A stretch of DNA of 64,000 nucleotides from Diphasiastrum complanatum (Eukaryota > Streptophyta > Lycopodiopsida > Lycopodiales > Lycopodiaceae). This document shows, piece after piece, positions 20,703 through 47,985 of the stretch (positions within the stretch are counted from its first letter, which is position 1; each line of letters starts with the position of its first letter). The stretch spans positions 13,268,697 through 13,332,696 of the forward strand of contig CM055111.1 in the NCBI GenBank assembly GCA_029204225.1, written 5' to 3'. The notes below the pieces were generated by a model. It saw only the letters and a list, made by a program, of their open reading frames with translations, was not told the origin of the DNA and did not search any database. The translations under genes were made by a program, and so were the position numbers.

Positions 20703-21050
20703 TTGGTACAACACATCTTTGATGTGTTGCTACTTCATGTTGAGCTTCAGTATAAACCACAATAATCATGGTAGAGAACACAGATGCTTCTTGGTACAAC
20801 ACACCCTTGATGTGTTGTTGTTTTATGTCGAACTTCAATATAAATCATAGTATGATTGTTGATGCTTCTTGGTACAACATGACTTTAATGTGTTGCTACT
20901 TTCTGTTAAGCTTCAGTATAAACCATATTATGGATCTACGATGCTTCTCGGCACAACAAATCCTCGATGTATTGTCACTACTTTTCTTTAGCTTCAGTAT
21001 AGATGATAATGTGGCTACCTGACATTTCTTGGTACAACACATCCTTTGGT
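20703..21050 (-). repeat. Satellite remnant (hairpin-bearing monomers of about 80 bp)
   Basis: Four degenerate monomers carry ttggtacaacacatc...gatgtgttg and cttcagtataaaccat. They are the truncated left counterpart of the array at 46790-47985. Confidence 0.75.
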
Positions 21051-21590
21051 ATGGGATCTAACATGATCAATAGCAAAAAACAAATATATCAATGGCAAGA
21101 TGTTAGTGGTTCACTACTTTGCTCTACCTCGATACTCAAAATAACCATTCATGTGGCCTAGTTGTGCAAAAATTTGCCTACTCTTAACAAGGGCCAATAT
21201 TTGCTTTCATATCTTGAGTGATCTATTGTTTGTTTCATCATGAAGGCCATCATTTGTTTTCATGTCCTAAGAGCCATCATCAGGTGCCAAATTGCCTGAT
21301 CGCACTTGATGGGCATTAAGTATGGACAAATCATGGATAGTGGATAGATAGTTACATGCTCCCATGTGACTCGATTGTTTTGGGTATAGAAGAGAGGGTG
21401 AATGATGGGAAATGCTCAAGAAAACAATCATACACTTATAACTGAGCCTTGGGTGACAGATGGATTCACTGGCTTGTGAAATCGCAAAGCTATGTAGTCG
21501 ATAAAAACCAATCTTCATTTGCTTGTTTTGTGTATGTGTATGCACATGCATGTGCATGCGCGTGCATGTGTGTGTGTGTGTGTGTTTTGC

Positions 21591-21823
21591 GGGGGGGGGG
21601 GGGGGGGTATGCTAGGGGAATAGACATAAATTTTATTAGTGACTTTTGTGACATGACTTTGTCCTGTGTTCGTTTATTACTCCGTTGTGAAATAGTCTAT
21701 TGTGGATGTGACTCTCTCTCTCTCTCTCTCTCTCTCTCTCTCTCTCTCTCTCTCACACACACACACACACACACCCACACACACACACACACACACACAC
21801 ACACACACACACACACACACACA
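21591..21823. repeat. Poly-G (17) and (CT)n-(AC)n microsatellites, left arm
   Basis: A run of 17 G at 21591-21607 is followed, after about 100 bases, by about 20 CT units and then about 35 AC units with one interruption. The paralogous tracts at 46021-46104 and 46212-46224 and at 51931-52005 differ in length. The Cys-Val and Ser-Leu frames here are repeat artefacts. Confidence 0.95.
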
Positions 21824-22379
21824 GTCCCTGGACTTGGGACGGAGTATACACAAATCATGTTTGTGAATTGTATGACATAACTTTTTAGTGTGTGTGCTTG
21901 TTGCTTGGGTGTGTATACCCTAAACCTCTCTATTCGTTCCGTGTCGAAACAATCCCCTATCAAACCCACGAAAATCAAACTAGAATAGATGCGGCTTATT
22001 CTAGATTTATTTGAATGCTTTGCAATTCTTTCATTGGAAGAACTTACAATTGTGGTTCCCTTACAAGTTTTAAATTCTGTGTGACATGAATTTGAACAGT
22101 GGCTACCCTATAAGGGGTGTCTGAATATTAGATGGATCGGCCTACCTCAAAACCAAAAGTGCCTCGAAAACATGTGGGGGAGAGCGAGTAAATATACCTC
22201 ATTCACTATTTGCACTGGTCTTGCCTAAAAGGCTGCTTGTAAATGAGGGACTTTCCTTAAATGTGATCACCTTAGAATGTGGGATGACTCCAAAACAACA
22301 CTACTTTGAGCAAGAGGTCTTCCCAAAACCAATACATTTATTTGTTGGACTTGCATTCTTTAGAACTTTTGGTATCTTG

Positions 22380-23130
22380 CATTTATACATTTTTTAGATA
22401 TTAGTCTATTGGACCCTTACATTTTTAGGGTTGTCTATGTCTTGAATTTTTACAGTTTCAGTGGTTTTAGTCTTTAGGACCCTTGGATATTAGGGCTTTC
22501 AAATGTCTTGAATTTTTACATTTTTTATGCTTTTCATCTTTTTGATGCATGAATTTTAACTTTTTTAGGCTTTTAATATTATAATCCCTAGCATTTTTTA
22601 GGACTTTCAATGTCTTCAATTAATCTCATTTTTTGGGCTTTTAATATTTTAATCCCTATGATTTTTAAGGGCTTTTAATTTGATGAGATATGCGTCCGGG
22701 GGCTTTTAGCCATTTTTGCGCCCGCATCGGGCGCCCGGGCGCGTCCATGTATGACCCTTGGAGGCGTCCAAATTTTTTTTTACTAAAAAATACAAGTAAA
22801 AAAATTAAAAAAAACAAATTTGTGCCCACCCCGGACGCGTCCACCCTTGGACGTGCCCGAGAGCGCCCACGCCCACTTCCAGGCTCGCGTCCGAGCACGC
22901 GTTTGCCCCCAACCCCCGCTTCCTTAGAATTTGATGAATTTGCATTTTCTTAGGACTTTTAATGTTTTCATTTTGACATTTTGTGGGCTTTTAATTTGCT
23001 TAAATTCTACATTTAGGGTTCTATTTAAGGGTTTAATGTATTTAGTTTTCCTTTTTACATTTTATTCGTGCTTCTAATTTGTTGTGCTTTTACATTTTAT
23101 TGATGTTTTGATGTATTTTTAGATAAAAAT
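22380..23130. repeat. Low-complexity quasi-periodic T-rich repeat
   Basis: The words gggcttttaat, aatttttacatttttt and taatccctatgattttt recur about every 35-60 bases on either side of a GC-rich block. The mirror is at 44714-45465. Confidence 0.6.
22690..22930. other. GC-rich island inside AT-rich DNA
   Basis: About 240 bases with many cgtccg, gcgcccgggcgc and ggacgcgtcc words interrupt the T-rich repeat. It is CpG-dense and unlike everything around it. Open frames on both strands are a by-product of composition. The mirror copy is at 44914-45154. Function unknown. Confidence 0.6.
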
Positions 23131-44913: not shown

Positions 44914-45154
44914 ATTCTAAGGAAGCGGGGGTTGGGGGCAAACGCGTGCTCGGACGCGAGCCTGGAAGTGGGCGTGGGCGCTCCCGGGCACGTCCAAGGG
45001 TGGACGCGTCCGGGGTGGGCACAAATTTGTTTTTTTTAATTTTTTTACTTGTATTTTTTAGTAAAAAAAAATTTGAACACCTCCAAGGGTCATACATGGA
45101 CGCGCCCGGGCGCCCGATGCGGGCGCAAAAATGGCCAAAAGCCCCCGGACGCAT
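44914..45154. other. GC-rich island, right-arm copy
   Basis: Mirror of 22690-22930 with a few differences (for example ctcccgggcacgtcc). CpG-dense, no gene seen. Confidence 0.6.
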
Positions 45155-46020
45155 ATCTCATCAAATTAAAAGCCCTTAAAAATCATAGGAATTAAAATAT
45201 TAAAAGCCCAAAAAATGAGATTAATTGAAGACATTGAAAGTCCTAAAAACTGCTAGGGATTATAATATTAAAAGCCTAAAAAAGTTAAAATTCATGCATC
45301 AAAAAGATGAAAAGCATAAAAAATGTAAAAATTCAAGACATTTGAAAGCCCTAATATCCATGGGTCCTAAAGACTAAAACCACTGAAACTGTAAAAATTC
45401 AAGACATAGACAACCCTAAAAATGTAAGGGTCCAATAGACTAATATCTAAAAAATGTATAAATGCAAGATACCAAAAGTTCTAAAGAATGCAAGTCCAAC
45501 AAATAAATGTATTGGTTTTGGGAAGACCTCTTGCTCAAAGTAGCGTTGTTTTGGAGTCATCCCACATTCTAAGGTGATCACATTTAAGGAAAGTCCCTCA
45601 TTTACAAGCAGCCTTTTAGGCAAGACCAGTGCAAATAGTGAATGAGGTATATTTACTCGCTCTCCCCCACATGTTTTCGAGGCACTTTTGGTTTTGAGGT
45701 AGGCCGATCCATCTAATATTCAGACACCCCTTATAGGGTAGCCACTGTTCAAAGTCATGTCACACAGAATTTAAAACTTGTAAGGGAACCACAATTGTAA
45801 GTTCTTCCAATGAAAGAATTGCAAAGCATTCAAATAAATCTAGAATAAGCCGCATCTATTCTAGTTTGATTTTCGTGGGTTTGATAGGGGATTGTTTCGA
45901 CACGGAACGAATAGAGAGGTTTAGGGTATACACACCCAAGCAACAAGCACACACACTAAAAAGTTATGTCATACAATTCACAAACATGATTTGTGTATAC
46001 TCCGTCCCAAGTCCAGGGAC

Positions 46021-46224
46021 TGTGTGTGTGTGTGTGTGTGTGTGTGTGTGTGTGTGTTTGTGTGTGTGTGTGTGTGTGAGAGAGAGAGAGAGAGAGAGAG
46101 AGAGTCACATCCACAATAGACTATTTCACAACGGAGTAATAAACGAACACAGGACAAAGTCATGTCACAAAAGTCACTAATAAAATTTATGTCTATTCCC
46201 CTAGCATACCGCCCCCCCCCCCCC
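46021..46224. repeat. (GT)n-(GA)n and poly-C (13) microsatellites, right arm
   Basis: These are the paralogous tracts to those in the left arm; together they are about 31 bases shorter. The C run is 13 long against 17 G on the left. Confidence 0.95.
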
Positions 46225-46789
46225 GCAAAACACACACACACACACATGCACGCGCATGCACATGCATGTGCATACACATACACAAAACAAGCAAATGAAG
46301 ATTGGTTTTTATCGACTACATAGCTTTGCGATTTCACAAGCCAGTGAATCCATCTGTCACCCAAGGCTCAGTTATAAGTGTATGATTGTTTTCTTGAGCA
46401 TTTCCCATCATTCACCCTCTCTTCTATACCCAAAACAATCGAGTCACATGGGAGCATGTAACTATCTATCCACTATCCATGATTTGTCCATACTTAATGC
46501 CCATCAAGTGCGATCAGGCAATTTGGCACCTGATGATGGCTCTTAGGACATGAAAACAAATGATGGCCTTCATGATGAAACAAACAATAGATCACTCAAG
46601 ATATGAAAACAAATATTGGCCCTTGTTAAGAGTAGGCAAATTTTTGCACAACTAGGCCACATGAATGGTTATTTTGAGTATCGAGGTAGAGCAAAGTAGT
46701 GAACCACTAACATCTTGCCATTGATATATTTGTTTTTTGCTATTGATCATGTTAGATCCCATACCAAAGGATGTGTGGTACCAAGAAAT

Positions 46790-47985
46790 GTCAGGTAGCC
46801 CCATTATCATCTATACTGAAGCTAAAGAAAAGTAGTGACAATACATCGAGGATTTGTTGTGCCGAGAAGCATCGTAGATCCATAATATGGTTTATACTGA
46901 AGCTTAACAGAAAGTAGCAACACATTAAAGTCATGTTGTACCAAGAAGCATCAACAATCATACTATGATTTATATTGAAGTTCGACATAAAACAACAACA
47001 CATCAAGGGTGTGTTGTACCAAGAAGCATCTGTGTTCTCTACCATGATTATTGTGGTTTATACTGAAGCTCAACATGAAGTAGCAACATATCAAAGATGT
47101 GTTGTACCAAGAAGCATTAGCAATCCATACTATGGTTCATATTGAAGCTCGACATGCAGCAACAACACACCAAGGATGTGTTGTACCAAAAAGCAACATG
47201 AACTAGCAACACATGGAAGACATGTTGGCAATCCATATTGTGGTTCATGTTGAAGCTCGATATAAAACAACAACACATCAAAGGATGTGATGTATCCTGA
47301 AGTATCTACAATCTCTACTGTGGTTATTGTGGTTTGTACATAAGCTCAATAGGAAGTAGCAACACATCAAAGATGTGTTGCACCAAGGTGCATCAGCAAT
47401 CCATACTATAGTTCATATTGAAGCTCAAAAAAAAGCAGCAACACATCGAAGGATGTGTTGTACCAAGAAGCACCTTGCGATCTCCAATGTGGTTATTGTA
47501 GTTTGTACTGAAGCAAAGACATCAAAGACGCATTGCATTGTACCCAGAAGCATCAACAATCCATATTGTGGTTCATATTGAAGCTCAACAAAAAGTAGCA
47601 ACACATTGAAGGCGTGTTGTACAAAGAATCCATAATCCATACTGTGGTTTATACCGAAGCTTGACATACAACAACAACACACCAGAGATGTGTTGTACCC
47701 AGAAGCATCAACAATCCATATTGTGGTTCATATTGAAGCTCAAAAAAAATTAGGGACACACTGAAGATGTGTTGTACAAGGAAGCATCAACAATCTGTAA
47801 TGTGGTTTATATTGAAGCTCAACATAAATCAACAACACGCCAAAGATGCAAGAAACATGTGTAAATGATGCAAGAAACTTCTGCAATCTATAATGTGGTA
47901 TATCTTGAAGATGGACATAAAGGATGCATTGTACCAAGAGGTGTACCAAGAGGCATCAACAATCTATGTTGTGGTTACTGGGGTA
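46790..47985 (+). repeat. Satellite-like tandem array, hairpin-bearing monomers
   Basis: About 14 degenerate monomers of roughly 75-90 bases repeat caacacatcaaaggatgtgt, tgtaccaagaagcatcaa, then caatccatantgtggtt and catattgaagctcaac. Each holds a near-palindrome (aacacatcaaagatgtgtt). Some monomers are shortened or merged. The frames across it are by-products of the repeat. No spacers of unique sequence lie between units, so it is not a CRISPR array. Confidence 0.88.

Follow-up and report, generated by a model that had tools for sequence, protein, structure and literature searches.

Two near-identical copies of the 5' part of a YSL metal-transporter gene lie in opposite orientation on contig CM055111.1 of the lycopod Diphasiastrum complanatum (assembly GCA_029204225.1), raising the question of whether such a pair is a source of small RNAs against intact YSL genes elsewhere, as an earlier note on this DNA had suggested, an artefact of assembly, or the product of an ordinary rearrangement. 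We analysed the 64-kb stretch that holds the two copies (the window; forward-strand positions 13,268,697 to 13,332,696), whose own coordinates are used below. The pair is most probably a recent inverted segmental duplication of an ordinary kind that plays no part in silencing, and its structure is explainable without any such role.

Two near-identical arms on opposite strands

Comparison of the window with itself by BLASTN returned a minus-strand match between 20703-25627 and 47110-42219, with 98.82% identity over 4925 columns, 25 mismatches and 6 gap openings. This is the full alignment for which the earlier note had called, and it recovered the pair of reverse-complement arms of about 4.9 kb described there. 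The near-constant coordinate sum and the altered microsatellite lengths that had been pointed out were likewise found: the sum goes from 67846 to 67813 across the arms, a shift of 33 made up of one 28-bp difference in a dinucleotide repeat, the largest length difference between the arms, and of 2- and 3-bp insertions or deletions seen in the alignment. Arm 1 (20703-25627, minus strand) contains YSL exons 1 and 2, introns and downstream sequence, and arm 2 (42219-47110, plus strand) is its counterpart; both were delimited from the BLASTN match, alignments and a tandem-repeat listing. The arms have 4380 of the 4905 21-mers of arm 1 in common (after reverse complementation) and an identical stretch of up to 732 bp, which rules out a chance likeness. 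Within the contig they are near-identical copies (98.8% over 4925 columns) on opposite strands; their non-allelic status and their presence on one molecule are presumed from the assembly.

Divergence was counted over 42335-45990, a range that avoids the dinucleotide repeats and the outer minisatellite but takes in two short tandem arrays. Here 20 of 3650 sites differ (0.55%), 14 by transition and 6 by transversion, with 3 gaps; over 42335-47110 there are 30 substitutions in 4776 sites (17 transitions, 13 transversions). Transitions are in excess of random substitution in both cases (14/20, P=0.0009; whole arms 17/30, P=0.007). The 14 transitions are distributed over CG (4), CHG (2) and CHH (8) contexts, numbers too small for a conclusion.

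The spacer between the arms measures 16.6 kb, or about 11.9 kb from the edges of the long terminal repeats (LTRs) described below, and its content is other than arm sequence. Arm 1 ends on its outer side inside a unit of a minisatellite of about 79 bp, next to sequence resembling the start of a Copia LTR (a 24-bp match, 91.7%, to 14030-14053). On the outer side of arm 2 the minisatellite extends rightwards to 47848; it is a degenerate 79/155/276-bp array spanning 46855-47848, and the outer edge of arm 2 falls within it.

Exons 1 and 2 of a YSL gene in each arm

In arm 1 the YSL exons lie on the minus strand, exon 1 at 24347-24926, open and with donor GTAATATG, and exon 2 at 24053-24225, with acceptor CCTCCCAG and donor GTTAGGTT; in arm 2 they lie on the plus strand at 42918-43497 and 43619-43791. 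The two gene copies are therefore directed away from each other, as the earlier note had said. Exon 1 has 580 nucleotides and exon 2 has 173, the splice sites are canonical in both arms, and together the exons give 251 stop-free codons in each. Exon 2 is identical between the arms, and the only coding differences, all in exon 1, are the three amino-acid changes counted in the earlier note: R/Q, V/E and C/Y (arm 1/arm 2) at residues 32, 118 and 183. At the last of these, arm 2 has Tyr, and arm 1 has Cys, as does the solved transporter 7wsr_A.

In arm 2, the long open frame (42912-43511) has matches to the OPT family and, at 7.6e-25, to 7wsr_A, the structure of an iron-phytosiderophore transporter; the frame of arm 1 is the same save for the three residues. 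Exon 1 matches the Pfam OPT model PF03169 (9.2e-18) over positions 1-89 of 623. We assign the gene to YSL, and not to another kind of OPT protein, from the 7wsr_A match and a YSL consensus; it may be YSL5/7/8-like. The earlier note had spoken of a YSL 5' half in each arm. A 5' part is indeed present in each, and it amounts to exons 1 and 2, 251 codons, in place of a complete coding sequence.

Middle YSL exons were sought with consensus queries, in one search that considered matches with E below 1 and in a second that used three middle-exon queries and went up to E 20, and no credible match was found within the window. The sole unexplained extra of the first search (1934-2014, E 0.11) contains a stop, as does one of the best of the second (57975-57895, E 0.046); these, together with an isolated minus-strand match at 863-780 (E 0.074) and two matches at E 0.36 inside LTRs, both from the second search, were judged by eye to be due to chance. 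With these queries giving middle-exon matches at chance level only, the reading of an intact YSL gene within the window was rejected. Neither arm copy has anything past exon 2 within the window, and both are probably non-functional fragments.

Apart from the arm exons, one sizeable piece of YSL coding sequence was found, a 3' part at 15155-15907 (plus strand), which is a pseudogene covering Pfam OPT positions 411-622 (PF03169; 1.2e-24 and 3.1e-15) with at least two frame breaks, one near 15188, judged against the consensus, and one near 15520. A 172-bp relic of the end of exon 1 lies at 31255-31426 (minus strand) and has an in-frame stop.

A Ty3/Gypsy-type element and the order of events

The inner edge of the match lies inside an LTR retrotransposon, which is best preserved beside arm 1 on the minus strand. 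There, a 5' LTR of 917 bp (28638-29554), with the target duplication GTGAT outside it at 29555-29559, leads into an internal region (25628-28637) with protease, reverse transcriptase, RNase H and an integrase zinc finger, and with a putative primer-binding site resembling the Met-tRNA type. The element breaks off at 25628, where it is fused to a 108-bp terminal remnant of the 3' LTR (25520-25627), and GTGAT recurs at 25515-25519, so that the duplication stands on both sides; the rest of the element past this point has been deleted, most of the 3' LTR included. The LTRs, the target duplication, the polypurine-tract-like sequence described below and the order protease, reverse transcriptase, RNase H, integrase are those of a Ty3/Gypsy element, and the absence of the integrase core marks the arm 1 element as a defective member.

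Beside arm 2 there is a complete LTR of 905 bp (41422-42326, plus strand), followed by GTGAT at 42327-42331. It is preceded at about 41411-41421 by the polypurine-tract-like CGAGGGGAGGA, and for this reason we read it as the putative 3' LTR of an element that lacks its 5' part. A solo LTR at 41422-42326 was considered and rejected, as the polypurine-tract-like sequence, and not GTGAT, lies directly to its left. The earlier note had taken 25627/42219 for the inner boundary of the duplication. The alignment shows there a deletion junction inside the arm 1 element, with the arm 2 LTR continuing leftwards to 41422, and the same result removes this position as a candidate inversion breakpoint.

The downstream junction of the element with GTGAT is common to both arms, and a third, older partial copy of the locus at 49440-52196 (plus strand) provides the site before insertion. 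This copy comprises flank X, the YSL upstream region and a piece downstream of exon 2, and differs from the arms by 4-6.5%. Flank X, the sequence at 29555-30826 in arm 1, recurs here at 49440-50731 with 4.1% divergence; the window self-comparison found no match for it beside arm 2. GTGAT is present once in the third copy, at 50727-50731, where the flanks are joined directly, as expected of an empty insertion site. The region upstream of exon 1 follows at 50727-51003 and the piece downstream of exon 2 at 51348-52196; the exon searches found no YSL exon in this copy. Thus, an older insertion is carried by both arms, with the empty site in the third copy. Compared against the window, the internal region of the arm 1 element matched only itself, its own short repeats and one 16-bp word.

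The LTRs give the same order. The end of the arm 2 LTR is identical to the 3' LTR remnant of arm 1 (108/108) and differs from the 5' LTR of arm 1 at 3 of 108 positions, indicating that the element inserted before the arms were duplicated. Likewise, the LTR pair is more divergent than the arms (19/905 versus 20/3650; Fisher P=4.6e-5), which also puts the insertion first. The simplest reading of these sequences would be one insertion, prior to duplication of the arms.

A model for the proposed inverted duplication

We propose a setting in which YSL gene fragments and LTR retrotransposons are clustered and decaying. The YSL locus would have been duplicated several times, the third copy, at 4-6.5% from the arms, being one product. 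The Ty3/Gypsy-type element would then have entered upstream of one YSL copy and made the GTGAT duplication, for which the empty site is the evidence, and the element-bearing copy would have been duplicated in inverted orientation together with the 3' end, or more, of the element. The outer edges of this duplication would lie in the minisatellite (arm 2) and beside the Copia-LTR-like start (arm 1). Arm 1 would later have lost part of its element; in arm 2 the 5' part of the element may have been lost later, or the duplication may have ended there. Template switching during repair, end joining or ectopic recombination among repeats is the likely mechanism.

Several points weigh against this account. 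Exons 1 and 2 are open in both arms with intact splice sites, and so show no sign of decay; the consensus queries could overlook a divergent exon, and the missing exons could also sit outside the 64-kb window. The actual inner breakpoint has no assignable position, since it should fall in a part of the element missing from arm 1, and we infer the physical reality of the arm junctions from the contig.

If the inverted duplication is as we propose, the locus shows with clarity how inverted gene fragments arise from gene clusters and LTR elements: the order of events can be read from a single insertion, the empty site and the unlike element remnants of the two copies. Without small RNAs it would be a caution that long inverted repeats alone are not silencers; were small RNAs detected, the locus would count as a young silencer of natural origin.

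Could the arms be two haplotypes?

The rival that survives best, although we regard it as unlikely, is that two haplotypes of one YSL locus were misjoined in opposite orientation within one contig. The arm divergence of 0.55% is within the heterozygosity range of outcrossing plants, and the arm ends, in a minisatellite and near LTRs, are hard to assemble. Neither the transition excess nor the element deletion separates a duplication from alleles, and a pair of alleles could well differ in the deletion. To this extent the earlier note was right to keep a haplotype join open. Such a join, however, requires misjoins at two unrelated edges as well as a strand flip. On its left side, arm 2 passes from the LTR into polypurine-tract-like sequence as an intact element would, with no misjoin there, and the other copies in the window show that the region is duplicated anyway.

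Could the arms be a source of small RNAs?

It is improbable, and clearly more so than a haplotype join, that antisense or read-through transcription of one arm makes the inverted repeat yield small RNAs directed at YSL genes. The common 21-mers would allow near-perfect pairing, and in soybean, silencing has been tied to the inverted repeats described below, some built of CHS genes and one of a truncated copy. The earlier note had envisaged read-through over one arm and the spacer into the other, with long double-stranded RNA (dsRNA) as the product. The geometry does not support this: the gene and the LTR of each arm read outwards, so none of their transcripts would cover both arms, and one that did would need a foreign promoter with a reach of some 20-26 kb. 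As the arms are head-to-head, with YSL and LTR directed away from the spacer, their own transcripts would be sense copies of each other, matching rather than pairing.

The layout of the window leaves one route, in which arm 1 would be read in antisense by transcription entering from the left; a Copia 3' LTR (14039-14793, plus strand) could, for example, start it, and this LTR, like the YSL 3' relic, is directed at arm 1 on the antisense strand. That antisense RNA from this neighbouring Copia LTR made the arms a trans-acting small-RNA source tuning intact YSL transporters is a slimmer prospect again. If true, this young head-to-head repeat of YSL exons 1 and 2 would be a natural counterpart, at an early stage, of the I locus of soybean.

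Several known systems can be compared with the YSL arms. At the soybean I locus, CHS1-3-4-Hypo-CHS4-3-1, identical clusters of 10.91 kb are separated by 5.71 kb, and small interfering RNAs (siRNAs) have been reported (PMC6710647, PMC6418295). The YSL arms resemble it as a long near-identical inverted repeat with a multi-kb spacer in a rearrangement-prone multi-copy gene region; unlike that locus, for which siRNAs are reported, they hold truncated genes 16.6 kb apart. Wild soybean W05 keeps the same CHS inverted repeat and yet has a pigmented coat, and the authors consider the repeat insufficient for the colour change, pointing to a subtilisin promoter moved in by inversion (PMC6710647, PMC6418295). 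GmIRCHS is, like the YSL pair, an inverted repeat of a truncated gene (pseudoCHS3); it is tail-to-tail, with a 1087-bp repeat and a 78-bp gap, is fused to the promoter portion of a DnaJ gene, and CHS dsRNA has been reported (PMC13051633), whereas the YSL arms are head-to-head across 16.6 kb with no fused promoter known. Arabidopsis PAI1-PAI4 is also an inverted gene duplication, but a tail-to-tail one with read-through, in which one transcript class passes PAI1 into PAI4 and can fold back (PMC3203196). For pseudogene-derived small RNAs in rice, two cases are named in which neighbouring paralogous pseudogenes might form dsRNA (PMC2708354); these resemble the present locus as duplicated pseudogenes near each other, and differ in being based on small-RNA reads. 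In rose, a YSL gene adjoins the Rdr1 cluster, and the excerpted account of that region describes nothing resembling a YSL inverted repeat (PMC3503547).

The weakest rival is a fold-back or chimeric read artefact by template switching onto the opposite strand: such artefacts do create inverted repeats, but they should leave identical arms with little or no spacer, and here the 16.6-kb spacer of other content, the transition excess among the arm substitutions and the element deletion present in arm 1 only make this explanation scarcely credible, much as the earlier note had argued from the arm differences.

The surrounding cluster

Around the arms, YSL fragments are clustered and have undergone several rearrangements, and a number of the observed edges coincide with repeats or LTRs. 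A CA microsatellite and an alternating purine-pyrimidine stretch (52142-52205) are fused, in the third copy, straight to the YSL coding end. This microsatellite is the one located downstream of exon 2 in the arms, and a YSL 3'-flank block comes next, as would result from deletion of the exons lying between the microsatellite and the gene end. A chromodomain in flank X is a lead only, scoring 16.6 bits, under the Pfam cut-off of 25.1, with none in its copy at 49773-50072.

The 3'-flank block, which accompanies the YSL 3' part at 15868-20461, is repeated at 52205-56406 (plus strand; 1.8% divergent) and at 63119-59109 (minus strand; 3.2% divergent, with the first ~590 bp missing). The two repeats form a second, tighter inverted repeat, 52777-56402 (plus) and 59497-63119 (minus), with arms of ~3.6 kb at 95.9% identity ~3.1 kb apart, a geometry that favours fold-back more than that of the YSL arms. 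Each block contains a ~1.04-kb unit twice (16657-17694 and 18708-19747, plus copies), and a 109-residue minus-strand frame in this unit (19093-19419) had no Pfam match. Scans of the window for transfer RNAs (with bacterial settings) and against Rfam found nothing.

Two Copia-type elements were recognised, at 9897-14793 and 31614-35945. For the former, no matching target duplication was seen by eye, so its flanks look rearranged. The latter has LTRs ~90% identical and an extra tandem LTR-like duplicate (34222-34956 and 34963-35716). Lastly, 2384-4494 and 36772-38675 form a direct duplication of ~2 kb with 87-90% identity, and a 331-bp unit stands in tandem at 3508-4163.

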